Of a DNA stretch of 64,000 nt, positions 30,983 through 59,562 are shown piece by piece. The notes beneath the pieces were generated by a model. The model had not been told where the DNA came from and did not search any database. It saw only the letters and a list, made by a program, of their open reading frames with translations. The stretch is from a virus. A program made the position numbers and the translations under genes. The stretch spans positions 1 to 64,000 of IMG/VR virus record IMGVR_UViG_3300034374_002231. One strand, given 5' to 3'. The number at the start of each line of letters is the position of its first letter. The first letter of the stretch is position 1.

Positions 30983-31243
30983 TCACGATGCCGCGATGGT
31001 AGCGCCAGTATCCGAACGCTTCCAGTTGGTGCCGTCCGAAAACGCGAGAATCGGCGAACCAGCAGCGCCATTAGAAACGTAGATTAGCGTCCCTGCGCCT
31101 GCCGAAGCGGCGGAAGGTGCGCCTGCCACAGTGTAGGTGGGAACGGTGATCGCGCCAACGACGTCACCTGTCACATCGCCCGTCACGTTACCCGTGAAGC
31201 CGTTGTTTGAAACAACCGGACCGCTGAAAGTAGTCGTACCCAT
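30983..31243 (-). CDS. Small beta-repeat virion protein next to the coat gene
   Basis: An 86-residue protein. I chose the ATG at 31243, six bases after AGGAG; the ATG at 31249 touches the Shine-Dalgarno. The N-terminus (MGTTTFSGPVVSNNGFTGNV then TGDVTGDVVGAITVPTY) resembles a short spike or fibre head, followed by a LIYVSNGAAGSPILAFSDGT strand pair. Such proteins sit after coat genes of marine phages as head-fibre or decoration candidates. Confidence 0.7.
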   Translation of the reverse strand: MGTTTFSGPVVSNNGFTGNVTGDVTGDVVGAITVPTYTVAGAPSAASAGAGTLIYVSNGAAGSPILAFSDGTNWKRSDTGATIAAS

Positions 31244-31320
31244 GTGCATCTCCTGTCGTGGGTCAAGTCAGCCACCCTATGCGGCTGTCAGGGATGCACG
31301 CAGCATACACTCGTACAGAA

Positions 31321-41370: not shown

Positions 41371-41778
41371 GGTACCAACAAATATAGGGGTCTGACAATC
41401 CGGGACTCTTTATGCACGAAACAGGGGGTCGGCAGGGGGGTGGGGTGCTCCTTAATGCGCATGCGATTGATACCCCCGGGGGAAGGTCGAATGGTCGGCT
41501 TGGACCGAATGTTCCGGTAATGTTCTGAAATGTGGTGTTGTGGGTGCGGAATAGCATTACTGCCGCAGCGGGCCGCCGCCTCGAAGCAGGGGGGATGCCC
41601 CCCGGTGGGGGTCCAGCCCCGGGGCGTTATACGTGCCGTATAACAGACCGTGACGCGATATTAAATGACACGTTCCGAAACCAAACCGTGGCAAGGCATG
41701 GCAAAACGTGTCAGATATAGGTTATCGGAAGGGCAATCCCGCCTGACCGAAACCATGTCAACCGAGAAAGGACAAGAC
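41371..41778. other. Divergent intergenic region before the late block
   Basis: No convincing gene. It holds palindrome copy 1, a TGTTCC box at 41510-41515, and C/G runs around 41580-41622. The late promoter for the terminase should lie here on the minus strand, but I find no good -35/-10 pair; a phage activator may be needed. Confidence 0.6.
41626..41644. promoter_or_regulatory. Palindrome copy 1 (core TGC)
   Basis: Perfect GTTATACG-TGC-CGTATAAC, 135 bases before the Ala/Lys-rich gene. Confidence 0.85.
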
Positions 41779-42477
41779 ATGACAAACGCAACCGCAACCG
41801 CAACCGCCAAGGCAACCGCAACCGCCAAGGCAACCGCAACCGCCAAGGCACGCAAGCCGCGCGCTGCAAAGGCGCAAGCCGCCCCCGTCAATTTTTCCGT
41901 CAAAGATGCGGCGCTTGCCGCAACGGATGGGCTGAAAGCGCAAGGGCGGCTCGAAAGCGCGCAAGCTGCGCGCGACAAGGCCGCCCTTGCTTTCCGCGAT
42001 ATGGTCATCGCGGCAAGCCTGACCACGAACGATTTTCGTGGTGCGACAAAAGACAAGACGCGTGGTGAAGGCAAGCATTGTCAGGCCTTGCGGCAAGAGG
42101 TGGCCTTGTCTTGGTTGAACGCGGCCGAACGCAAGATTGTCGAAACGGCGAACGATAAGGCGAACGGTTCGCCTTATCACAAGGCCATGACCAAGGTCAC
42201 GAACGCGGTCAATCGGTTCCTTGACCATGTGGATCGCGTGGCCAAGGCTGAGGCTGAGGCCAAGGCCAATGGCGGCAAGGGCAAGGGCAAGGCTAGCCCC
42301 GGCGGCCGCACAATCAAGGCCATGTCCGAGGTACTGACCGAGGGTTTCGGCACGATGCTGAAACGCCTTGGCAACGACAAGAGGTCGAAAAACCCCAGCG
42401 GGGCGAACCACGATACGGTCCGCAGGGTTTTGGAAAAGGCATTGAGAGATGCCTTGGCGGAAATGGCCAAGCAATAA
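41779..42477 (+). CDS. Ala/Lys-rich protein with histone H1-like N-terminal tail
   Basis: A 232-residue basic protein. I chose the ATG at 41779 after GAGAAAGGA, the same ribosome-binding sequence as other early genes; an upstream frame from 41665 is possible. The first ~30 residues are short repeats (ATATAKATATAK) ending KARKPRAAK, coded by 18-base DNA repeats, as in bacterial H1-like proteins. The rest is helical (LESAQAARDKAALAFRDMVI, HKAMTKVTNAVNRFLDHVDR) with a Gly/Lys linker (NGGKGKGKASPGGR). A DNA-binding role is likely by composition. Single gene with its own terminator. Confidence 0.75.
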   Translation: MTNATATATAKATATAKATATAKARKPRAAKAQAAPVNFSVKDAALAATDGLKAQGRLESAQAARDKAALAFRDMVIAASLTTNDFRGATKDKTRGEGKHCQALRQEVALSWLNAAERKIVETANDKANGSPYHKAMTKVTNAVNRFLDHVDRVAKAEAEAKANGGKGKGKASPGGRTIKAMSEVLTEGFGTMLKRLGNDKRSKNPSGANHDTVRRVLEKALRDALAEMAKQ

Positions 42478-42484
42478 CACGAAG

Positions 42485-42511
42485 GGCGGCGCGAAAGCGC
42501 CGCCTTTTTTT
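42485..42511 (+). terminator. Intrinsic terminator after the Ala/Lys-rich gene
   Basis: GGCGGCGC, GAAA tetraloop, GCGCCGCC, then seven T. Perfect 8-bp GC stem, so this gene is a transcription unit of its own. Confidence 0.95.
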
Positions 42512-42567
42512 GTGCCTTGCGTCCTGCGGGACGCTGCGTCACCAGTTACCCCAACAGCACGGGGCGC

Positions 42568-42586
42568 GTTATACGCACCGTATAAC
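42568..42586. promoter_or_regulatory. Palindrome copy 2 (core CAC)
   Basis: Perfect arms GTTATACG / CGTATAAC in the control region. Confidence 0.85.
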
Positions 42587-42692
42587 AGCACCGGGTCGAC
42601 AGCGGTTCCGGCCCAGCGACACGTCTCCACGCGTCACCAGTTACCGCAGCAGCACAGGGCACGAGGTCGGACAGCACACGGCATACGAGGTT

Positions 42693-42711
42693 GTTATACG
42701 GGCCGTATAAC
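42693..42711. promoter_or_regulatory. Palindrome copy 3 (core GGC)
   Basis: Perfect arms; lies in the first 70-bp repeat. Confidence 0.85.
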
Positions 42712-42762
42712 ACGTTCGGCCGCCGCATCACCAGTTTCCACAGCAGCACAGGGCACGAGGTT

Positions 42763-42781
42763 GTTATACGGGCCGTATAAC
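42763..42781. promoter_or_regulatory. Palindrome copy 4 (core GGC)
   Basis: Perfect arms; lies in the second 70-bp repeat, exactly 70 bp after copy 3. Confidence 0.85.
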
Positions 42782-43004
42782 ACGTTCGGCCGCCGCATCA
42801 CCAGTTTCCACAGCAGCACAGGGCGCGCTACACGCTAGGCGCGAAGCCGGGCGAAAAATTTACAACTTGTGGGGGGTGCGAGGATTACGCTCAGAGCATT
42901 GCGTCCACCACTGCGTGGTGTAGCTAACGCTACGTGTAGCGTAACCCAAATTGAGATTTTGTCAACCCCCTCGCTCACGGGTTGTAACAATTCTACCCAG
43001 AGAT

Positions 43005-43434
43005 TGTTCCACAAATATATCACAACGTGGATGCGTTATACGGCCCGTATAACACTGATTTCATGTAATGTTCCAGTCTACAACCATACACCTATTGTTC
43101 CAAATGTTCCAGTCGCCTAAAAAGAGTGGAACAATATAACGCGTTGATAACAAAAGAAAAAACGGGTATTGTTCCAATGTTCCATAAATTCGAGGAATAG
43201 TGACCTCGGCAACCGTTTTCGTCTGACCGAATGCACCGCACCGTCAAACACCCCCCAAATTTTTCCAACCCGGTATATACTAAAAAATGTGGAACATTTG
43301 GAACATTTGGAACAATAGGCATCTACTACTACTACTAACTATAAATATATATATATATATCAGACACTTACACCAACACACATGCAGGTTTGTATTGTTC
43401 CAATTCAAAATCTTGAATAGGAACATTTGGAACA
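43005..43434. repeat. Cluster of thirteen GGAACA/TGTTCC boxes
   Basis: TGTTCC starts at 43005, 43069, 43096, 43105, 43170, 43178 and 43396; GGAACA starts at 43128, 43291, 43300, 43309, 43420 and 43429. Neighbours are often 9 bp apart (TGGAACATT in tandem). A further box lies at 41510. Candidate iterons or operators flanking an AT-rich run. Confidence 0.85.
43035..43053. promoter_or_regulatory. Palindrome copy 5 (core GCC)
   Basis: Perfect arms; inside the GGAACA-box cluster. Confidence 0.85.
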
Positions 43435-43515
43435 TTACCGAATATCAATGACTTAGCGTTTTCGGTCCCGCTGGACCGCACACCCTGCACCCTATGCTGC
43501 CAATCCCACACCGTT

Positions 43516-43534
43516 GTTATACGACCTGTATAAC
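43516..43534. promoter_or_regulatory. Palindrome copy 6 (core ACC)
   Basis: Left arm perfect, right arm TGTATAAC (one mismatch that breaks pairing). Confidence 0.8.
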
Positions 43535-43561
43535 AGCTACCAATACTTACCAGAACCTCAC

Positions 43562-43601
43562 ATGATATTCTCAAATGAAACATGAGATTCTCAAATGAAG
43601 C
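43562..43601. repeat. Two 20-bp direct repeats before a candidate promoter
   Basis: ATGATATTCTCAAATGAAAC and ATGAGATTCTCAAATGAAGC in tandem, ending four bases before a TTGACT box. Likely activator sites or upstream promoter elements. Confidence 0.6.
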
Positions 43602-43604
43602 ATA

Positions 43605-43633
43605 TTGACTCAAATCGTATTATATCGTACTAT
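43605..43633 (+). promoter_or_regulatory. Candidate sigma-70-type early promoter
   Basis: TTGACT, a 17-base spacer, TACTAT, in an AT-rich stretch before the plus-strand block. The -35 matches five of six, the -10 four of six; an alternative -10 TATACT lies three bases on. Position is right for the early promoter. Confidence 0.5.
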
Positions 43634-43726
43634 ACTACGTATAGTTTGTTTGTTCCCGGGTCTTGTTGACCAACGCTCTTTGACATCGTGATTGGCTGCG
43701 CCTGACGCAGCCCGGCCTAGCTAGGT

Positions 43727-43745
43727 GTTATACGCCCCGTATAAC
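43727..43745. promoter_or_regulatory. Palindrome copy 7 (core CCC)
   Basis: Perfect arms, extended by GGT/ACC to a 25-bp dyad (43724-43748). Confidence 0.85.
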
Positions 43746-43975
43746 ACCGATGATGCAGAACCAACCGGCCATTGCCTGTGACGCGCGGCTACGAAAACAC
43801 CGCAGCGTGGGCACGCTCCCACTTCCAGTGGGGGCGTTGCAGAAATCAAGAACCAGCAAGCCACTGTATTGGCATCAAGGGAGACGGGAGTTCCCCCCTA
43901 CAAAACTCGAAGCCCCACGCAGCTATCACACGCGACGGTACGTTGGCCTGTTATACTTCGCGACCCGCGATGCGG

Positions 43976-43994
43976 GTTATACGCCTCGTATAAC
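43976..43994. promoter_or_regulatory. Palindrome copy 8 (core CCT)
   Basis: Perfect arms. A half site GTTATAC lies 26 bases upstream (43950-43956). Confidence 0.85.
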
Positions 43995-44395: not shown

Positions 44396-44423
44396 CCACA
44401 CCGAAACCATCGCAACACGCCCC

Positions 44424-44442
44424 GTTATACGGGGCATATAAC
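44424..44442. promoter_or_regulatory. Palindrome copy 9 (core GGG) with alternative hairpin
   Basis: Left arm perfect, right arm CATATAAC (one mismatch). It lies 18 bases before the next ATG. The left flank GCCCCG (44419-44424) can also pair with CGGGGC (44430-44435) around TTATA. Confidence 0.85.
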
Positions 44443-44460
44443 AGTGAGAAAGGAAGTATC

Positions 44461-44892
44461 ATGCTCAGCACAACAACACAGAACCAGATCAATCAGGAAT
44501 GGGAACGCAAGGCAGAAGCCTTTGCGTGGGAGGACAAGCACCCTGTCCACCCGACAACCGACGTGCGGAACGACGCGTTCCGCAACGCGATGAACGCAAT
44601 CGGGCACAAAGCCCTGCCGTTCATGAATGCCAAGTATACATACGTCAGCGATCTGGCGTGGGATGCCGCTGCCTGTGCCGACCTGGAGAAGGGGGACACG
44701 CTGTTCCTCCTCATCCGCGAGTGCGGCACGTCCCTGTTCACGCCGATCACGCAGGAGCCAGATCACGTCCAGCGCAAGCTGGAGGAGGTCATCGAACACG
44801 TAGACGTGTGCAGCACCCGCAAGGCTGTACTGCGCGTGGTGCGTGAAGCCTATGACACCTTCACGGTGTCGGTCGTGTACAACCGCGTGTGA
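44461..44892 (+). CDS. Early protein of unknown function, 143 residues
   Basis: A 143-residue protein starting at an ATG after GAGAAAGGAAG. N-terminal helix (QINQEWERKAEAFAWEDKH), then a mixed domain with YVSDLAWDAAACADLEKGD and LFLLIRECGTSLFTPITQ, and an alternating C-terminal strand (RVVREAYDTFTVSVVYNRV). Compact alpha/beta fold likely. No family recognised. It has palindromes on both sides, so it forms its own block. Confidence 0.75.
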   Translation: MLSTTTQNQINQEWERKAEAFAWEDKHPVHPTTDVRNDAFRNAMNAIGHKALPFMNAKYTYVSDLAWDAAACADLEKGDTLFLLIRECGTSLFTPITQEPDHVQRKLEEVIEHVDVCSTRKAVLRVVREAYDTFTVSVVYNRV

Positions 44893-44911
44893 CGCGGACA
44901 ACCAGCGCCCC

Positions 44912-44930
44912 GTTATACGGGGCGTATAAC
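44912..44930. promoter_or_regulatory. Palindrome copy 10 (core GGG) with alternative hairpin
   Basis: Perfect arms, 19 bases before the ATG at 44950. CGCCCCG (44906-44912) can pair with CGGGGCG (44918-44924) around TTATA, which excludes the main stem. Confidence 0.9.
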
Positions 44931-44949
44931 ATGAGAAAGGAGACCAGCA

Positions 44950-45126
44950 ATGGCTGGAGAACTTATGACATTTGCCGCCCTGCCACAGGGCGCGCCGTTT
45001 TTCTTCAACGGCAACCGCTGCATCAAGCGGTCGTCCAAGACGGCCGAACTCGTTGACTACAAGCGGACGTTCTACTTCCGCAAAGACGACGTGATCGCCC
45101 TCGGCTGGCCGGGAGATGGCGAATGA
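44950..45126 (+). CDS. Small early protein, 58 residues
   Basis: A short protein (MAGELMTFAALPQGAPFFFN, then RCIKRSSKTAELVDYKR). The ATG follows GAGAAAGGAG. The pattern of F-x-x-L-P-x-G-x-x-F-x-F-N-G resembles small SH3-like phage proteins I have seen beside early genes, but I cannot name it. Its stop overlaps the next ATG (ATGA). Confidence 0.7.
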   Translation: MAGELMTFAALPQGAPFFFNGNRCIKRSSKTAELVDYKRTFYFRKDDVIALGWPGDGE

Positions 45127-45326
45127 CGCAGAAACCCACGCCCAAGACGTGCGCGTGCTGTGGGGAGATGACCCCGCCGCTGATGCAGTGGTTCAACCAA
45201 GACACAGGCTACGGCCTGTGCGAGCCGTGCGCTGACTGGATCGAACAGCGAAGCGGGGCCGACTATCTCGCCGAAACCTACGGGCAGCGCGGAGTGCATA
45301 TTGCAGATAACAGGGAGCAGAGATGA
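45123..45326 (+). CDS. Small zinc-ribbon-like protein, 67 residues
   Basis: Two Cys pairs, CACC (residues 10-13) and CEPC (33-36), about 20 residues apart, make a zinc ribbon likely. The rest is acidic and helical (CADWIEQRSGADYLAETYGQ). It overlaps both neighbours by four bases. The next gene also codes a Cys-pair protein; together they may be small regulators or nucleic-acid binders. Confidence 0.75.
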   Translation: MTQKPTPKTCACCGEMTPPLMQWFNQDTGYGLCEPCADWIEQRSGADYLAETYGQRGVHIADNREQR

Positions 45327-45535
45327 GAACTAACGTAGACCCACACTGTATAACGTGTGGTGACGAGTACCCTCACGCGCGCCGCGCGTTGGGGTACCAG
45401 ACCTGCCTTGACTGTGGGCAGGAAGCCGCTGTGGCCATGCGCGCAGGGTGGTGCATCGTGCCGCTGCCCAAGCAGGGTTACACACGGGTCACCCGCAAAG
45501 ACGAACTGCAACACCTCAACCAGAAGCCCCGCTGA
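45323..45535 (+). CDS. Second small zinc-ribbon-like protein, 70 residues
   Basis: Cys pairs CITC (9-12) and CLDC (28-31) suggest a treble-clef or ribbon, followed by QEAAVAMRAGWCIVPLPKQG and a basic tail. It is coupled to the previous gene by ATGA. After it comes a GC hairpin (CCCCGC-TGAT-GCGGGG, 45527-45542) that runs into palindrome copy 11. Function unknown. Confidence 0.75.
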   Translation: MRTNVDPHCITCGDEYPHARRALGYQTCLDCGQEAAVAMRAGWCIVPLPKQGYTRVTRKDELQHLNQKPR

Positions 45536-45541
45536 TGCGGG

Positions 45542-45560
45542 GTTATACACAGCGTATAAC
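45542..45560. promoter_or_regulatory. Palindrome copy 11 (core CAG)
   Basis: Left arm GTTATACA has one mismatch, right arm perfect; 13 bases before the DUF3150-like gene. CGCTG (45530-45534) can pair with CAGCG (45550-45554), a weak alternative stem. Confidence 0.8.
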
Positions 45561-45573
45561 AAGGAGAACGACA

Positions 45574-46473
45574 ATGACTTTTACTTTCGATAACGCACCG
45601 GCACCGCAGGGTGCCACTCTTCAGTCCTCGACCATGCTGGTCGAACTGAGTATCTCGGTCTGGACTGCGCGCAAGCTGGACAAGCGTGCGTCTGACGACG
45701 TGACAACGCAGAAACGTGCCGACAAGGGTATGGCCAACGTCCACAAGAAGCTGATTGCCTGTGACGAGTTGACCGCGATCCAGAAGTTCGCCGCGAACGC
45801 ACGCACGTCGCACCACTATGCTATGACGCTGCCGTGGTCCGACAGCGGGCTGCGTATGCTGCCGACGTCGAAGTATTTCGGCTATCACAAGACCATGACC
45901 GGACTGCAAGCCGAGTTCGACAGGCTCGTGGAGAAGTTCTTGGCCCGGTACGAGTGGCTTATCAACGAGACCCAGATCAAGCTGGGCGACATGTATAACC
46001 CAGCCGAGTACCCGTCGCTTGACAGGATGCAGGCCAAGTTCGGCTTTCGCCTCAACTACATTCCCTTGCCCGAGGCGGGCGACTTCCGCGTGGACATTGG
46101 CAACCAGCAGGCTGCCGAGTTGCAGCAGCAGTATGCTTCGTTCTACGAAGCGCAGCTGACCCGGGCGATGGGCAACCTGTGGTCCCGTACATACAAGACG
46201 CTGACCCACATGTCCGAGCGGCTGGACTACGCTGACCACGAACAGAAGAAGGTGTTCCATAACACGTTGGTGTCCAACGTGCTGGACCTGATCGACATGA
46301 TGGAGACCATGAACATCACCAACGATCCGAACATGCAGCTGCAAAGCCGTCGCCTCAAGATGGCGATGCAGGGTATCTCGCCGGACGCGTTGCGTGAGGA
46401 CGAGGGTCTGCGCCGTGAGACCAAGCGGGCTGTGGACGAGGCCATCAAGGCCCTGCCGTCGCTCGACTTCTAA
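45574..46473 (+). CDS. DUF3150-like protein of the MoxR/VWA module
   Basis: A 299-residue helical protein; the ATG follows AAGGAG. It resembles the DUF3150 family: N-terminal LVELSISVWTARKLDKRASD, then MANVHKKLIACDELTAIQ, a long helical middle with a conserved-looking PSLDRMQAKFGFRLNYIPLP, and a Glu-rich C-terminus (RETKRAVDEAIKALPSLDF). In bacteria and phages this family is usually next to a MoxR-like ATPase and a VWA protein, exactly as here, so it is probably a substrate or adaptor of that machine. Family from memory. Confidence 0.75.
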   Translation: MTFTFDNAPAPQGATLQSSTMLVELSISVWTARKLDKRASDDVTTQKRADKGMANVHKKLIACDELTAIQKFAANARTSHHYAMTLPWSDSGLRMLPTSKYFGYHKTMTGLQAEFDRLVEKFLARYEWLINETQIKLGDMYNPAEYPSLDRMQAKFGFRLNYIPLPEAGDFRVDIGNQQAAELQQQYASFYEAQLTRAMGNLWSRTYKTLTHMSERLDYADHEQKKVFHNTLVSNVLDLIDMMETMNITNDPNMQLQSRRLKMAMQGISPDALREDEGLRRETKRAVDEAIKALPSLDF

Positions 46474-46496
46474 TACAATACGTCAACCAGCGGGGC

Positions 46497-46515
46497 GTTA
46501 TACGCCCCGTATAAC
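46497..46515. promoter_or_regulatory. Palindrome copy 12 (core CCC) with alternative hairpin
   Basis: Perfect arms, 30 bases before the AAA+ gene. CGGGGCG (46491-46497) can pair with CGCCCCG (46503-46509) around TTATA. Confidence 0.9.
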
Positions 46516-46545
46516 AAATCAAATCAAACCAAACGGAGAACTACC

Positions 46546-47634
46546 ATGACTAACACTATGTATCACCTCGGTCTGGACCAGACCGCAAACCTCATCAAGA
46601 TCATTGGCCACAAGCGCACCGTGCTGGCGCAGGGTCACATGGGTACCGGCAAGTCCTCGCTGCTCAAGATGCTGGCCGAGATGCTGCCGACGCACACCCC
46701 CGTGTACTTCGACTGCACGACCAAGGACTTGGGTGACCTCATGTTGCCACGCATCGCCGAGGTGGACACAGAGACACCGTACGTCAGCTACGCACCGAAC
46801 GAGGAGTTGGGTATCCACCACAACACCCCCGTGATCGTCATGCTTGACGAGTATGGCAAGGCTAACGCCGCTGTGAAGCAGGGCCTGACCGCCTTCATGC
46901 TGGAGCGCCGGTTGGGTAACAACGTGCTGCACCCTGACAGCATCGTGTTCTGCACCACCAACCTCGGGGCCGAGGGCGTGGGCGACTTGCTTGTGGCACA
47001 CCAGCGCAACCGCATCATCCCTGTCACGGTACGCAAGCCTAGCAACGTGGACTGGATCGAGTGGGGCATCAACAACGGGATCGACCACAGCCTGTTGGGC
47101 TGGTGCCGTGACAACCCGCAGCTGTTCGCTGACTTCACCGAGATCAAAGATCCGGACGAGAACCCTTACATCTTCCATCCTCGTGCGCAGCGTGCTGCCT
47201 TCGTCACACCTCGTTCGCTCGAAACTGCGTCTGACATTCTCAAGACGCGTGAGTTCCTTGACGACCAGACGGTGGTGGCTGGCTTGATCGGTGCCATCGG
47301 TGATCGTGCGGCGATGGACTTGATGGCCTTCGTCAAGCTGGCTGACCAGCTGCCCAGCTTGCAGTCTATCAAGGACGACCCGAAGAACGCTATCGTGCCG
47401 ACCAGCGCCGCAGCTGTGTGTATGGTGGTGTATCGTACCATGGCAGCGCTCGAACGTGACTGGCTCGACGCGTGGATGGACTACATGGTGCGGCTGCCGA
47501 AAGAGGCGCAGGGTATGTTTGCCAACGGTGTCCGCACCCCGAAGTATTCCAAGCAGCCCATGGTGATGACCAACACCAAGTTCACCAACTGGGCCATGCA
47601 GAACAGCTATCTCTACGCAGCTGACATCAAGTGA
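46546..47634 (+). CDS. MoxR-family AAA+ ATPase
   Basis: A 362-residue AAA+ protein. Walker A GHMGTGKSS at 30-38, Walker B VIVMLDEYGKA with D101/E102, sensor-1-like IVFCTTN, and an arginine-finger region around HQRNRIIPVTV. The helical C-terminal part covers about 250-362. MoxR ATPases work with VWA proteins to remodel or load metal into partners. The DUF3150-like gene upstream and the metallopeptidase/VWA gene downstream make the set. It lies after palindrome copy 12 with a Shine-Dalgarno GGAG. Confidence 0.88.
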   Translation: MTNTMYHLGLDQTANLIKIIGHKRTVLAQGHMGTGKSSLLKMLAEMLPTHTPVYFDCTTKDLGDLMLPRIAEVDTETPYVSYAPNEELGIHHNTPVIVMLDEYGKANAAVKQGLTAFMLERRLGNNVLHPDSIVFCTTNLGAEGVGDLLVAHQRNRIIPVTVRKPSNVDWIEWGINNGIDHSLLGWCRDNPQLFADFTEIKDPDENPYIFHPRAQRAAFVTPRSLETASDILKTREFLDDQTVVAGLIGAIGDRAAMDLMAFVKLADQLPSLQSIKDDPKNAIVPTSAAAVCMVVYRTMAALERDWLDAWMDYMVRLPKEAQGMFANGVRTPKYSKQPMVMTNTKFTNWAMQNSYLYAADIK

Positions 47635-47641
47635 GGGACAC

Positions 47642-47797
47642 ATGTCGACCGATGACCTGAAAACGGCCCAGCTTATTCTGGACCTCAAGGAAATGCTTCG
47701 CGTCTACGTAGACGGGAAGGATCACAACGAAACTCGTGGCCAAGCCTTGGCCACGATACGCGAAGCAAACGCATGGCTATATGGAGAGGACAAATGA
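47642..47797 (+). CDS. Small acidic helical protein, 51 residues
   Basis: MSTDDLKTAQLILDLKEMLR is followed by GQALATIREANAWLYGEDK. It lies between the ATPase and the Myb-like gene and overlaps the latter by four bases (ATGA). Helical, no motif. Function unknown. Confidence 0.65.
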   Translation: MSTDDLKTAQLILDLKEMLRVYVDGKDHNETRGQALATIREANAWLYGEDK

Positions 47798-48087
47798 AAC
47801 CGTACCAGAAGAAGTACAAGCCCAAAGAGGGCAAGCGGAACACGCTTTGGACTGAAGAAGACCGCGACCTGCTGCGCACACTGGCTGCGCAAGGTGTGCC
47901 GCATTGGGACATTGGCAAGCGTCTCGACCGCTCGCCCGGTTCGATCAGCCAGCAGCTGTACCTGATGCGTAAGCAAGATGAGGCGGAACGCTTCATCGAC
48001 GCAGTGATGGAGGACTACCACGAGGTGGAGGTCACGCCGAAACCGTCGCTGTGGCGGCGCATCATGAACATTATACGACGCGTATAA
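47794..48087 (+). CDS. Myb/GcrA-like helix-turn-helix protein
   Basis: A 97-residue basic protein; I chose the ATG at 47794, coupled to the previous stop. WTEEDRDLLRTLAAQGVPHW followed by IGKRLDRSPGSISQQLYLMR is a three-helix Myb/SANT-like DNA-binding domain (about residues 19-61), also reminiscent of GcrA-type regulators of Alphaproteobacteria. The C-terminus is coded by the left part of palindrome copy 13, which also contains the stop. A candidate regulator of this block. Confidence 0.75.
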   Translation: MKPYQKKYKPKEGKRNTLWTEEDRDLLRTLAAQGVPHWDIGKRLDRSPGSISQQLYLMRKQDEAERFIDAVMEDYHEVEVTPKPSLWRRIMNIIRRV

Positions 48088-48088
48088 C
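48070..48088. promoter_or_regulatory. Palindrome copy 13 (core ACG), overlaps a coding end
   Basis: First base A instead of G, the rest perfect. It codes the last residues and stop of the Myb-like protein and lies 15 bases before the next ATG. Confidence 0.8.
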
Positions 48089-48103
48089 AGACAGGAGAAC
48101 AAC

Positions 48104-49318
48104 ATGTTTATGGGTAAGTTGACACCCGAGCAACGGGTGCAGAAAGCCGTGATCGACATCATGGCCAAGGATCGCTACGCCGCACTGGCTGGCATTCTGA
48201 TGATCGGCGAGAAGCGTGTGGAGTATGACGCTGACAAGTGTCCGACCGCGTACACCGACGGTAAGAACGTGGTGTTCGGTGCTGACTTCATGGACGGCAT
48301 GACCGACGCAGAGTTGCGGTTCCTCGCTATCCACGAGGAGAAGCACAAGATGTATCGCCACCTGACAACGTGGGAGTGGATGTGGAAGGAGGACAAGCAG
48401 CTTGCCAACCAAGCGTGCGACCACGTCATCAACATTGAGACAGTGGACGAGAACCCTGACGGCTTCGCCACTATGACAGGCAAGCTGGCCGAGGGTTGCT
48501 GTGACTTCAAGTACCGTGGGTGGGATGCTGCACAGGTATTCCATGACCTCAAGCGCAAGCGTGACGAGCAGGGCGGCAGCAGTGGTGACGGTGATGGTGA
48601 CTACGACGGCAGCTTCGACCAGCATGGCTGGGAAGAAGCGCAGGACATGACCGCCGAGGAGAAGCGCGAATTGTCCCGTGCCGTGGACGAGGCCATACGT
48701 CAGGGTGTCTTGCTTGCAGGTAAGACCGGGTCCGGTGGCGACCGCAGCTTCGAGGAACTGCTGACACCGCAGGTCAACTGGCGTGACGCGCTGCGTGAGT
48801 TTGTACAGAACACATGCGCTGGGTCTGACTACTCAACGTGGCGCAAGCCCAACCGTCGGTACGTCGGGATGAACATCTACATGCCCTCCGGTGTCAGCGA
48901 GACAGTGGGCGAGATGGCCGTGCTGATCGACACGTCAGGGTCTACCTACGCACCGGGTGTGCTGCCCGCCTTCATGTCCGAGGCCAAGGCCATAGCCGAG
49001 ACTGTCCGACCGGAGCGGGTGCACATCATCTACTGGGACACCTCGGTGTGTCAGGCTGAGGTGTACGAGCAGGACGAGTTGGACAAGATGATCTCCAGCA
49101 CGCAGCCCAAGGGCGGTGGAGGCACCGACATTACCTGTGCCATCGACTACATGGCCGAGCATAACATCAAGCCGCAAGCATCCATCGTACTGACTGATGG
49201 TTATCTGTTCGGTGGCTGGGGATCGTGGTCACACCCTGTGATGTGGTGCGTGATCGACAACAAGAACGCCAAGCCCGACACGGGCAAGGTCGTACACATT
49301 CGTGCGAGTGACATGTGA
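48104..49318 (+). CDS. Putative metallopeptidase + VWA-domain protein (DUF2201-like)
   Basis: A 404-residue protein. The N-terminal domain has a zinc motif HEEKH at 77-81 (in LRFLAIHEEKHKMYRHL). An acidic linker (GDGDGDYDGSFDQHGW) follows. The C-terminal VWA-like domain has the metal-site motif DTSGS at 276-280 and LTDGYL later. This domain order matches the DUF2201 family that partners MoxR ATPases. It probably works with the AAA+ and DUF3150-like proteins; the target is unknown. It has palindromes on both sides. Confidence 0.85.
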   Translation: MFMGKLTPEQRVQKAVIDIMAKDRYAALAGILMIGEKRVEYDADKCPTAYTDGKNVVFGADFMDGMTDAELRFLAIHEEKHKMYRHLTTWEWMWKEDKQLANQACDHVINIETVDENPDGFATMTGKLAEGCCDFKYRGWDAAQVFHDLKRKRDEQGGSSGDGDGDYDGSFDQHGWEEAQDMTAEEKRELSRAVDEAIRQGVLLAGKTGSGGDRSFEELLTPQVNWRDALREFVQNTCAGSDYSTWRKPNRRYVGMNIYMPSGVSETVGEMAVLIDTSGSTYAPGVLPAFMSEAKAIAETVRPERVHIIYWDTSVCQAEVYEQDELDKMISSTQPKGGGGTDITCAIDYMAEHNIKPQASIVLTDGYLFGGWGSWSHPVMWCVIDNKNAKPDTGKVVHIRASDM

Positions 49319-49333
49319 TACCAACCACGCCTC

Positions 49334-49352
49334 GTTATACGGGGCGTATAAC
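49334..49352. promoter_or_regulatory. Palindrome copy 14 (core GGG) with alternative hairpin
   Basis: Perfect arms, 15 bases before the ATG at 49368. CGCCTCG (49328-49334) can pair with CGGGGCG (49340-49346) with one G-U pair, around TTATA. Confidence 0.9.
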
Positions 49353-49367
49353 ACAAGGAGATGAGCA

Positions 49368-50399
49368 ATGGCTCGTTACTACAAAGCAATCAACAGTTTC
49401 GCCGACATTGAAACTGCCTATAACCTAACCCTCCCTCTGCGTGGCGCGAAGAACAAGGACAAAGACATCCGTCCCATTGGCGACCGCAAGCGCAAGTGGG
49501 AGCGCATCGTCAAGGTAAGCAACAACTGCTACGCCCTGACTAACGGATGGCACCCGGGCGAACCGGATTACTGGATGCGTGATAGCGCGGTTGATGGTGA
49601 GCCTCCTATCAGCTGGATGGCCAAGTATTCGCCCATCGTCTGGCGTAGGCATAAAGATGGAACCGAGACCGTCACCCTGCGTAACGGTACAGGCTCCCGT
49701 CAGCACAATAGCGTGTATGATTTCCTGCAGCGCCACGTCCCGAGATATATGTTTTTCCGACAGACGAACGTCGGACACCAGTATATCAGCGTGCATGGCA
49801 CTGACTACTACTTGGCGAAGGGTCGCACCATACCGAAGCAATACGCTGCTCGCGCGTTGAAGTACGACTCGGAGCGTGTGTGGTACCAGACCACTGACGA
49901 CAACGCGTCTCTGACCTTCAAGGTGTTGGACGGCCGCTATGAATTTGTTGGCGAGGCGCTGACGGTACCGAAGCCGCCCAAGAAGCGCGTAGATAAGGCC
50001 CGCAAGGCAGCCCTCAAGCCGCACATCGACGCGTTCCGTGACTGGGCTATAGCTATCCTGCCCATGATGCCTTCTGACTGGAAGTCCGAGAACGAGGTGC
50101 TGAACCAAGCCCGCACCGTACCTATCGGTGCCTTCCGTCTTGGGTACTCTGTTGGGTGGGCCTTCAATACCTACAACTCAAAACTAGCAGAGCAAATTAT
50201 ACAGCACGACCAGCACGCGCTTCGCGTTTTGTTGGCGCTTGACATGCGTGCGGTGGTTCGTTCTGCGCTTGAGACTGAGCACGGGAGCGGCACGAACTAC
50301 ACACACCTGCACCTGAATGCCGGGTTCCAGACCGCCTATAACCGCTGGGTCAACAGGGTACTCGGACTTATCAACGAAGTACAAGGAGATGCGAAATGA
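49368..50399 (+). CDS. Early protein of unknown function, 343 residues
   Basis: A 343-residue protein; ATG after AAGGAG. The N-terminal half is beta-rich with many Trp/Tyr (RKWERIVKVSNNCYALTNGW, SPIVWRRHKDGTETVTLRNG). The C-terminal half is helical (AALKPHIDAFRDWAIAILPM, HDQHALRVLLALDMRAVVRS). No motif or family recognised. It is coupled to the next gene by ATGA, and both probably act together. Confidence 0.75.
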   Translation: MARYYKAINSFADIETAYNLTLPLRGAKNKDKDIRPIGDRKRKWERIVKVSNNCYALTNGWHPGEPDYWMRDSAVDGEPPISWMAKYSPIVWRRHKDGTETVTLRNGTGSRQHNSVYDFLQRHVPRYMFFRQTNVGHQYISVHGTDYYLAKGRTIPKQYAARALKYDSERVWYQTTDDNASLTFKVLDGRYEFVGEALTVPKPPKKRVDKARKAALKPHIDAFRDWAIAILPMMPSDWKSENEVLNQARTVPIGAFRLGYSVGWAFNTYNSKLAEQIIQHDQHALRVLLALDMRAVVRSALETEHGSGTNYTHLHLNAGFQTAYNRWVNRVLGLINEVQGDAK

Positions 50400-51256
50400 A
50401 CGCAGAATGGATGGAAGTAGACGACCTCAAGCCAGTGAGTGATAACACGCACCCAAACCTGTTGGCCTTTATGCGTGGCGTTCAGGCCAAGATACCCGGC
50501 ATACAGTTCGGGCAGCGCGGTCCTTCGGCAACCAGTGCAGTGTTTGCGTACCTGCCCGGAGAACACGTGACTATGGGCCGTATTGGCTACGGCGATTTCA
50601 AGGTCCGAGGTAAGGGCACCGCCGAATACATCGTGGAGTCCGACTATATTAATAATTGCAAGTACAGCAGCTCCAGTAGGCAGCATCACATGGCGATGAC
50701 TAAGGACCGCGAAAAAGCGGTGACGAACGCACAGAAGTTCTTGCGTCGGATGCCTACTCCTGTAGTTGCGCTCCGTTTGTTTGCTGGGGCAAACGCGTTT
50801 GTGCACGATAGAGCATCCAAACTCCGGGACGCAGCTGCAAAGGCCGAGTCGAAGGTGTTTACGACGTCGCTCTCTAGATACGGTTCAGGTGCCGTACGCA
50901 TACGACTGCTGGCTGAAATGCAACGCCTTATAGATACAGATCACATCTTCAGCGATCCATCGTTTGGTACGGATCTTGCCGCTATGCTTACTGCACGTGC
51001 CGAGTATGACGCGCTTAAAGACGGCGTGGAGTTTACATTCGTGGGCGTCAAAGACACGCCGTTCGGTCAGCAGATAGAAGTAATAGATTTGGATAAGTAC
51101 GGATGTGACGGAAGTGATGTACGCATCTTCACCGAAGCTGATATGCCTACTGACCTCGCAGGTAAAGTGGCCGTACTGTCCATGCTTCAGCCTCGCGAAT
51201 ACGTCGATGGTGTAGGCTGCCGTCGTACAGAGCGGGTGTTCTATGTCGTACGGTGA
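50396..51256 (+). CDS. Early protein of unknown function with C-terminal module shared with next gene
   Basis: A 286-residue protein. The N-terminal part (ADL-free, beta/alpha; FAYLPGEHVTMGRIGYGDFK) precedes a helical basic middle (HDRASKLRDAAAKAESKVFT). The C-terminal ~85 residues end GKVAVLSMLQPREYVDGVGC then RTERVFYVVR. The next, short gene ends with a closely similar pattern, so the end looks like a duplicated module. No named family. Confidence 0.75.
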   Translation: MNAEWMEVDDLKPVSDNTHPNLLAFMRGVQAKIPGIQFGQRGPSATSAVFAYLPGEHVTMGRIGYGDFKVRGKGTAEYIVESDYINNCKYSSSSRQHHMAMTKDREKAVTNAQKFLRRMPTPVVALRLFAGANAFVHDRASKLRDAAAKAESKVFTTSLSRYGSGAVRIRLLAEMQRLIDTDHIFSDPSFGTDLAAMLTARAEYDALKDGVEFTFVGVKDTPFGQQIEVIDLDKYGCDGSDVRIFTEADMPTDLAGKVAVLSMLQPREYVDGVGCRRTERVFYVVR

Positions 51257-51488
51257 GTTGTCATATCGCGTGGAATATCTGCCTGACAACGAGCATGTCA
51301 AAGTACTATGTTTTACGTCGAAACAACTTGCATTGATACCGGATGGTACGTATCGTATAGATACCCTCCCGCAAATTCTGCGCGACAAATTGGCTGTTCT
51401 AGCCATACTGGAGACCCCACCTCCGCCGGTTGATGTGGCGGGAGTGGGCCAGCGCGTAGGAGAGCGAGCGTTCTGGGTGTACCTCTAA
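51243..51488 (+). CDS. Short paralogue of the preceding gene's C-terminal module
   Basis: An 81-residue protein overlapping the previous gene by 14 bases. The body (SYRVEYLPDNEHVKVLCFTS, LIPDGTYRIDTLPQIL) is beta-rich, and the end DKLAVLAILETPPPPVDVAG then GERAFWVYL mirrors the end of the upstream protein. Probably a partial duplicate that became a gene. Function unknown. Confidence 0.7.
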   Translation: MSYGELSYRVEYLPDNEHVKVLCFTSKQLALIPDGTYRIDTLPQILRDKLAVLAILETPPPPVDVAGVGQRVGERAFWVYL

Positions 51489-51503
51489 CAACGTACGAGG
51501 CGT

Positions 51504-51522
51504 GTTATACGCCTCGTATAAC
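51504..51522. promoter_or_regulatory. Palindrome copy 15 (core CCT) with 10-bp alternative hairpin
   Basis: Perfect arms, 25 bases before the VRR-NUC ATG. TACGAGGCGT (51494-51503) is fully complementary to ACGCCTCGTA (51509-51518), giving a 10-bp stem with loop GTTAT. Confidence 0.92.
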
Positions 51523-52634: not shown

Positions 52635-53115
52635 GCCGTTAACAGTCAACGAACAGCACGTATGGGCATACCTCCTGCAACACCGAAACGCCCGGGCCTT
52701 TGAAGTGGCCGAGGCTGTTGGCGTGAGTGAGGCGCTCGTTGCGGCCATGATGGACCGCATTTCCTCTGACAACTGGCGGGAGGAGGTAACCCCTCCCGCT
52801 ACCAGCGGCGTCAAGTATGACAGTGACAAGCTGCCGATGCACCTCTTGCCACCTGAACTGCTGGAAGGCACCGCTGCGGTGCTGGCCTTCGGTGCTCGCA
52901 AATACACTCCCCGCAACTGGGAACTCGGCATGGAGTGGCACCGACCCTACTCTGCCCTGATGCGTCATATGTTGGCGTGGTGGGGTGGAGAGGATCTCGA
53001 CCCGGAGACTGGGCTGTCACACACATGGCATGCGGCATGCTGCATCGCGTTCTTGATGGCCTACGAACAACGCAAGATCGGAACAGACGACCGACCGAGG
53101 GAGCACACCGCATGA
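52627..53115 (+). CDS. Winged-helix domain fused to dATP/dGTP diphosphohydrolase-like (DUF5664) domain
   Basis: A 162-residue protein. Residues 1-50 form a winged-helix-like unit (VNEQHVWAYLLQHRNARAFE, AVGVSEALVAAMMDRIS). Residues 60-150 match the DUF5664/dNTP diphosphohydrolase pattern: KYDSDKLPMHLLPPELLEG, LAFGARKYTPRNWELGM, ALMRHMLAWWGGEDLDPETG, SHTWHAACCIAFLMAYE. Such all-helical MazG-like enzymes remove dATP/dGTP or modified dNTPs. In Z-genome phages a related enzyme (MazZ) works with PurZ, but no PurZ is seen here. The fusion to a DNA-binding-like domain is unusual. Confidence 0.8.
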   Translation: MSKPLTVNEQHVWAYLLQHRNARAFEVAEAVGVSEALVAAMMDRISSDNWREEVTPPATSGVKYDSDKLPMHLLPPELLEGTAAVLAFGARKYTPRNWELGMEWHRPYSALMRHMLAWWGGEDLDPETGLSHTWHAACCIAFLMAYEQRKIGTDDRPREHTA

Positions 53116-53492
53116 GGACCATTCACTTTAACCTTATCAGACGCCGCCGCTGGCGCGAATGTGCGGAGGCTCTGGAGGCCCACGGCAACGCGACCGATGC
53201 GGCAACGGCGCTGGGGTGGAAACGACAGCAGGTCTACGACGTGATCCACCGAATGAAGAAAGCCGGGATCATTGAGCAGACAGCGCCCTACACATGCAGC
53301 TACGCCTCGTCGCAGCAGCGCGCGGGCACTATGCGGGCTGGCCGTATCTTGGAAGCAGCACAGGCATACGACCGAGACTTCCAGCGGTGGTTGGTAGGAC
53401 AGATACCAGAGGGCGGCACGTTGGCAGAGTTGCTCATGGCCATGGCGTTTGACGCTTACATTGAAGAAGAAAGCCAGAAGGAGGCAGCGTGA
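53112..53492 (+). CDS. Helix-turn-helix protein, 126 residues
   Basis: Starts at the ATG overlapping the previous stop (ATGA). The basic N-terminus (RRRRWRECAEALEAHGNATD) and NATDAATALGWKRQQVYDVI, then HRMKKAGII, form a probable helix-turn-helix. The C-terminal half is helical (RILEAAQAYDRDFQRWLVGQ, LAELLMAMAFDAYIEEES). A possible transcription regulator of the phage; target unknown. Confidence 0.7.
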   Translation: MRTIHFNLIRRRRWRECAEALEAHGNATDAATALGWKRQQVYDVIHRMKKAGIIEQTAPYTCSYASSQQRAGTMRAGRILEAAQAYDRDFQRWLVGQIPEGGTLAELLMAMAFDAYIEEESQKEAA

Positions 53493-59274: not shown

Positions 59275-59544
59275 ATGCCGTACGTCAACAAACCACGCCC
59301 CTACGCGAAAGAGTGGCAGCAAGAGAAGGCCCGCAACGAGAAGCCAGCCCGTGCAGAGCGGGCCAAGGCACGGCGGGCCTTCGACAAAAAACACGGTAAG
59401 AAAGCCCGAGAAGGGCTGGACCTCAGCCATCGCAAGGACTTGTCCCGTGGTGGTGATAATTCGGACGGTGTACGTCTGGAAAGCCCGAGCGCTAACCGCG
59501 CCCGTGGCGGTGCCTTGAGCAAGCCCCCAAAGAAAAAGGCCTAG
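59275..59544 (+). CDS. Small basic protein, degenerate HNH-like
   Basis: An 89-residue Lys/Arg-rich protein. YAKEWQQEKARNEKPARAER is followed by DLSHRKDLSRGGDNSDGVRL and ESPSANRARGG. The LSHRKDLSRGG...N..L..SP..N pattern resembles the second half of HNH motifs, but the metal Cys/His set is incomplete. May be a DNA-binding remnant or structural homologue. Its stop runs into palindrome copy 16. Confidence 0.65.
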   Translation: MPYVNKPRPYAKEWQQEKARNEKPARAERAKARRAFDKKHGKKAREGLDLSHRKDLSRGGDNSDGVRLESPSANRARGGALSKPPKKKA

Positions 59545-59562
59545 TTATACGGGCCGTATAAC
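59544..59562. promoter_or_regulatory. Palindrome copy 16 (core GGC)
   Basis: Perfect arms, 10 bases before the helicase ATG. It touches the stop codon of the previous gene. The left flank GGCC gives only a weak alternative stem. Confidence 0.88.

Follow-up and report, generated by a model that had tools for sequence, protein, structure and literature searches.

What does a repeated palindrome become once it is transcribed into the leader of the gene that it precedes? The question is raised by a stretch of 64,000 nt (here, the window) that covers nearly all of the 64,667-bp virus record IMGVR_UViG_3300034374_002231. The record carries the palindrome GTTATAC-N5-GTATAAC in 16 copies over 64.7 kb, 14 of them perfect and two with one mismatch; the reversed pattern, run as a control on the same record, gave 0 matches at 0-1 mismatch. 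Copies 1-8 lie in a control region between a minus-strand and a plus-strand gene block (41,626-43,994), and copies 9-16 each lie directly 5' of a plus-strand gene. These 16 near-identical sites, spread over a control region and intergenic gaps, have the layout of a distributed operator. A preliminary description of the DNA had claimed that in the leaders the sequence upstream of the palindrome co-varies with the palindrome core and pairs with it, and had suggested selection for an RNA or cruciform switch. We refer to the pairing of upstream flank and core (A:A') as hairpin A and to the pairing of the palindrome arms (B:B') as hairpin B, the order along the strand being A-B-A'-B'. The flank pairing is real and confined to gene leaders; a constitutive hairpin that stops the operator from folding once transcribed fits it better than a switch, since hairpin A is the stronger of the two and hairpin B is disfavoured in leaders.

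Upstream flanks pair with the palindrome core in gene leaders

Hairpin A was found in the five leaders for which it had been proposed (elements 1, 2, 4, 6 and 7 in Table 1). The positions given for these hairpins were correct and the stem sizes were not, the stems being 1-2 bp longer once inner and outer pairs are counted: 6 bp at 44419-44435 (7 with an inner U-A pair), 9 bp each at 44905-44925, 46490-46510 and 49327-49347, and 12 bp with the loop UAU at 51493-51519. The stem at 49327 includes one G-U pair, which is G-C in the sister phage (L042:5129). All five are significant against dinucleotide-shuffled flanks (2,000 shuffles each), with p values of 0.0165, 0.0035, 0.0055, 0.0115 and 0.0020 in the order given, and in these leaders hairpins A and B exclude each other, as had been noted.

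A weaker case of flank:core pairing had also been suggested at 45530-45554, in front of the DUF3150 gene. It is not flank:core pairing: a separate hairpin at 45526-45543 lies immediately 5' of the palindrome there, and the corresponding leader of the sister phage (L018:7106) has a regular flank:core hairpin. At the two remaining leader copies, 48070 (p 0.44) and 59544 (5 bp, p 0.24), whose flanks coincide with the 3' end of the preceding gene, no flank hairpin was significant against shuffled flanks. The control-region copies, described earlier as having little or no such flank, do lack it as a class; two depart from this, the copy at 43976 (p 0.0075) and, less clearly, that at 42568 (4/5 core bases paired, p 0.085).

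Covariation of flank and core in relatives

IMG/VR was scanned for relatives both by exact pattern and by protein. Records that share the operator type have GTTATAC or GTTATGC arms (GTTATRC) and contain 20 different cores, with which the flank co-varies. In a swap test, the folding energy of each copy's own flank, arm and core was compared with energies after flanks had been swapped between copies (2,000 permutations). GTTATRC-type leaders (n=59) averaged -12.3 kcal/mol with their own flanks vs -7.7 kcal/mol with swapped ones (z -12.8, 0/2,000 permutations), whereas non-leader copies (n=106) gave -6.05 vs -5.81 kcal/mol (z -1.2). After thinning to <65% identity the z values were -7.1 for leaders and -0.6 for non-leaders. 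The downstream flank gave no pairing signal (z 0.6). GTTAGT-type operators showed the effect independently, with z -7.0 in leaders and 0.7 in non-leaders.

Two register-matched alignments gave covariation scores of 0.604 vs 0.199 when shuffled (7/9 pairs changed on both sides) and 0.350 vs 0.119 (3/7 pairs); pre-sorting by register makes these scores lean towards structure, a bias of which the swap test is free. Sliding the pairing partner abolished the signal in both alignments, so that compensatory changes stand above shuffled and slid controls alike. The covariation that had been predicted is thus present in relatives. One orthologous leader shows a double change that preserves the pairing, GAGG/CCTC at 51504 vs GGGG/CCCC at L042:7302 (A-U to G-C). 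Between the window and its sister (L018/L042), no compensation accompanies the drift of the control copies.

Hairpin A at <= -9 kcal/mol is present in 32/34 leaders whose flank is free of coding sequence and in 8/23 with a coding flank; this threshold counts any hairpin that involves the flank, such as that at 45542, and, TAA being part of the right arm, some flanks may have been wrongly called coding. Intergenic gaps of these phages that lack the palindrome are unstructured (mean z -0.4, vs -2.9 with it), which ties hairpin A to the operator and rejects a generic intercistronic hairpin or other general leader feature. The register of hairpin A varies (mainly 0, -2 and -3), as does its loop, yet pairing almost always takes in the core and the two right-arm bases next to it, as expected if coverage of the core is what counts.

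Hairpin A is predicted to prevail over hairpin B

In leaders with a free flank, the mean energy is -15.9 kcal/mol for A vs -6.0 kcal/mol for B. Foreign flanks in place of the own ones raise the predicted P(B:B') from 0.08 to 0.62, and the own hairpin A lowers predicted right-arm pairing from 0.77 to 0.40.

The leaders also bear marks of selection on B itself. A site with unlike half-sites can lie in two orientations that are equal for a dimer, and the mRNA receives an A.C mismatch in one and a G.U pair in the other. Leaders show 27 A.C to 5 G.U (p 1e-4) and non-leaders 11:8 (Fisher p 0.05 for the difference); 12/13 loci with such leaders lean to A.C. The very few cases of other operator types gave 2:0. 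Outward extension of B averages 0.12 extra pairs in leaders vs 0.86 in non-leaders, and B folded with four flanking bases has -7.8 vs -9.5 kcal/mol (p 1e-5). As an RNA structure, B is not conserved in leaders and looks selected against.

A proposed insulated operator and its alternatives

The computations establish a covarying pairing that is leader-only and upstream-only, and they indicate that selection disfavours B in the mRNA of leaders. The explanation that we favour, on balance, is one of distributed, stoperator-like DNA operators whose leader copies carry a constitutive RNA hairpin that insulates the transcribed operator beside the ribosome-binding site. The palindrome (B-core-B') would be a double-stranded DNA operator for a putative phage-encoded dimeric regulator, repeated in stoperator fashion in the control region and between the stop codon and the ribosome-binding site of early genes. 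A transcribed leader copy could fold its arms as B:B', which would place the 3' arm directly 5' of the Shine-Dalgarno sequence; the distance from palindrome end to start codon is 10-34 nt (median 17) in all leaders studied. The flank may have been selected for pairing with the core and the adjoining two bases of the right arm, and hairpin A, stronger and formed first during transcription, would keep the ribosome-binding region and the larger part of the right arm unpaired. The flank would then be a constitutive anti-operator hairpin rather than half of a switch. That the palindrome is a DNA operator, that a regulator reads it and that translation benefits are inferences.

The operator reading is supported by the arms found in relatives. 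A related AAA ATPase was recovered at 80 loci in the IMG/VR scans, most of which carry a repeated palindrome of their own lineage (GTTAGT-N5-ACTAAC, GTTAGG-N6-CCTAAC, TTTACG-N6-CGTAAA, GTAGTG-N3-CACTAC and others), likewise in a control region and 5' of genes. Between lineages the two arms vary in concert while the places stay comparable, the pattern that a dyad operator with a co-evolving dimeric regulator would produce. A search for the regulator did not find it: of two candidates in the window, a helix-turn-helix (HTH) open reading frame (ORF) at 52935-53492 and an ORF at 41665-42477, neither is conserved in the clade. We further consider it quite possible, short of probable, that these are natural phage RNA insulators in which the flank evolves to pair with the operator spacer and so prevents a fold of the transcribed operator that would disturb translation, in phages of at least two operator specificities.

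Several results weigh against an insulating role. The predicted gain at the Shine-Dalgarno sequence is small (pairing 0.41 to 0.38; 0.45 to 0.39 over the stretch -20..+13), and the folding programs treat each RNA as single and free of ribosomes. Five leaders keep A with B nearly abolished (-0.9 to -1.3); in element 1 of the window a C.A mismatch has this effect. GTTAGG-type leaders showed no flank-pairing effect in the swap test, and relatives whose palindromes have GTTAGG arms or are centred on GAATTC show a strong B (~ -10 kcal/mol) and no A at leaders, so that not all of these phages neutralise B. Part of the orientation bias comes from a few phages (L150, L146).

Retention of A without B, the small Shine-Dalgarno effect and strong B without A together make a serious, if unlikely, rival of the idea that hairpin A is wanted for itself, the operator merely sharing its bases. 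It would be either a stable intercistronic stem, AU-rich and unpaired on its 3' side, that fixes a site of mRNA processing or stability, for instance RNase E cleavage within the right arm, or a hairpin-type pause of RNA polymerase. Such a role agrees with the AU-rich right arm directly 3' of every A and with the separate hairpin that replaces A at 45542; it fits poorly with palindrome-free leaders that lack a hairpin, with the wide variation of register and loop, and with the fact that extension of B, the cheapest route to a stronger stem, is not used.

The two-state RNA switch proposed earlier, in which a protein, ribosome or ligand would move the leader from A to B and turn the genes off, draws on the mutually exclusive helices directly 5' of the ribosome-binding site. 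We consider it improbable: A is ~10 kcal/mol more stable than B and forms first, and B is disfavoured as leader RNA and nearly absent in the five leaders just mentioned. The leaders therefore do not maintain two alternative structures in the manner of a riboswitch or attenuator, and the spacing between the preceding stop codon and the flank is too variable for a switch set by a ribosome.

The preliminary description had left open whether the pairing acts in RNA or in a cruciform. Pairing within a single strand, most likely mRNA, is upheld; a cruciform is unlikely, as pairing is restricted to leaders and, within them, to the upstream flank. DNA-level pairing in general (a cruciform, a single-stranded-DNA hairpin or a second dyad recognised by the regulator) is likewise very unlikely. 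The sequences by themselves hardly separate RNA from DNA: a strict count inside hairpin A gave 4 G-U vs 1 A-C, too few to decide, and a first count (10 and 19) was discarded because it ran past the real stems. A dyad read by a protein would moreover conserve sequence, and the stems vary freely. Least probable of all, and very much so, is a mutational artefact. Template switching during replication is known to correct quasi-palindromes and could create covariation without selection by repairing imperfect inverted repeats, but it should affect control copies and downstream flanks equally, and neither shows a signal.

Further candidates were rejected: at the gathering score of Rfam no known RNA family matches the site, the only match being Mu-gpT-DE RNA far off at 31241-31293; no GC stem with a T run, as in an intrinsic terminator, matches at any of the five flank:core hairpins; and the right arm resembles a -10 element (TATAAC), but at 59544, 45542 and 48070 the Shine-Dalgarno sequence follows directly, so that a transcription start there would cut it off. 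A search for an N4-type virion RNA polymerase returned no PF00940 match, nor did its positive control; a 2485-aa protein resembles DarB. No tyrosine integrase was found in 14 records, which speaks against stoperators of lysogeny and leaves a role in lysogeny unproven.

Gene layout and other features of the window

The minus-strand block, up to ~41.4 kb, encodes terminase, portal, Mu-like head and tail proteins, and the Mu-gpT-DE match (minus strand) lies directly 5' of the major head gene. The plus-strand block from ~44 kb encodes DUF3150, AAA ATPase, VWA/DUF2201, nucleases, helicase and DNA polymerase. Its DUF3150 - MoxR-type AAA ATPase - VWA (DUF2201) cassette (45,574-49,318) is common to hundreds of uncultured phage contigs and has distant relatives in N4-like phages. 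In some relatives (L064 ~7,940, L067 ~430) an extra hairpin, GTGGC-TAC-GCCAC with a C-UACG-G loop, lies between the palindrome and the ribosome-binding site of the AAA gene. The small HTH protein (53,112-53,492) is only 28% identical to its best sister-record match, compared with 97% for the AAA/VWA genes, and its gene therefore seems locally replaced.

In the control region, a second repeated motif, (GAT)ACCAGTTCTTAGAG-NN-GCG or ACCAGTTWCC..CAGCAGC, lies 3' of the palindromes (42,550-42,830). It is kept across the clade (L065, L069, L084, L091, L124, L129) despite differing palindromes and is possibly an origin or promoter element. The AT-rich part (43,060-43,450) holds many iteron-like TGTTCCAAATGTTCCA / GGAACATTTGGAACA repeats. 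A sigma-70-like match, TTGACT-17-TACTAT (43,605-43,633, plus strand), is a candidate early rightward promoter, in a region where the number of such matches is near chance.

Table 1. Copies of the palindrome in the window, with their flanks and hairpins
Feature	Position	Strand	Remarks
Control-region palindrome 1	41626..41644	.	without co-varying flank
Control-region palindrome 2	42568..42586	.	flank pairs 4/5 core bases, p 0.085
Control-region palindrome 3	42693..42711	.	70-bp unit, repeated with copy 4
Control-region palindrome 4	42763..42781	.	70-bp unit, repeated with copy 3
Control-region palindrome 5	43035..43053	.	
Control-region palindrome 6	43516..43534	.	
Control-region palindrome 7	43727..43745	.	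context AGCTAGG..palindrome..CCGATRATGC kept in relatives having other palindromes
Control-region palindrome 8	43976..43994	.	flank pairing p 0.0075
Leader element 1	44419..44442	+	flank CCCC + GTTATAC-GGGGC-ATATAAC; hairpin A 44419-44435
Leader element 2	44905..44930	+	flank GCGCCCC + GTTATAC-GGGGC-GTATAAC; hairpin A 44905-44925, z -3.81
Leader element 3 (DUF3150 gene)	45526..45560	+	palindrome 45542-45560; separate hairpin 45526-45543, no flank:core pairing
Leader element 4 (AAA ATPase gene)	46490..46515	+	flank GCGGGGC + GTTATAC-GCCCC-GTATAAC; hairpin A 46490-46510, z -3.66
Leader palindrome 5 (VWA gene)	48070..48088	+	ATTATAC-GACGC-GTATAAC, within 3' end of upstream ORF
Leader element 6	49327..49352	+	flank ACGCCTC + GTTATAC-GGGGC-GTATAAC; hairpin A 49327-49347, z -3.98
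Leader element 7 (VRR-NUC-like nuclease gene)	51493..51522	+	GTACGAGGCGT + GTTATAC-GCCTC-GTATAAC; 12-bp hairpin A 51493-51519, z -3.42
Leader palindrome 8 (helicase gene)	59538..59562	+	weak 5-bp GGCC flank pairing spanning upstream stop codon TAG

Comparison with known systems

The phage family with these palindromes is uncultured and apparently mostly marine. Such repeats are not present in HTVC027P and DSL-LC04, which are among the isolates closest in terminase sequence, and a search of bacterial genomes for a relative of the AAA ATPase found none. The collection of relatives shows operator sequences that change by lineage while their positions persist in a largely uncultured phage clade, so that the co-evolution of operator and regulator could be followed from metagenomes.

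Distributed operators as such are already known. In phiC31, conserved intergenic inverted repeats are bound by the phage repressor, although our literature search on them returned nothing; we know of no flank:core RNA hairpin at these repeats, and of no covarying leader hairpin at stoperators. The stoperators of L5 and other cluster A phages resemble the present sites in their genome-wide spread (more than 20 regulator sites), in their location in promoter regions and short intergenic gaps, and in a specificity that varies between relatives (PMC9283540). An L5 site is a 13-mer that lacks symmetry, is recognised by a monomer and follows the direction of transcription (PMC9283540), whereas the sites here are 19-bp dyads and thus not stoperators proper. 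SPbeta has a repeated site (SPBRE) for the repressor MrpR in several intergenic regions of one phage; there it is a 15-bp motif of prophage promoter regions, for which the parts of the source available to us describe no leader hairpin (PMC10516654). In the open-licence literature we found no description of a flank that co-evolves with an operator spacer, and no report of a covarying anti-operator hairpin.

The folding of a transcribed operator in a 5' leader is a problem familiar to synthetic biologists. RiboJ-type synthetic insulators likewise normalise the 5' leader with a hairpin-bearing RNA module; they are engineered around a self-cleaving ribozyme (PMC7536230), whereas the phage leaders show no evident ribozyme and draw part of their hairpin from the operator itself. 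If the insulator reading is true, one sequence would serve both as a DNA operator and as a harmless leader, the flank would be a directly testable sequence rule, and these phages would offer a natural, genome-wide solution to the folding of operators in leaders, with a clear record of covariation.

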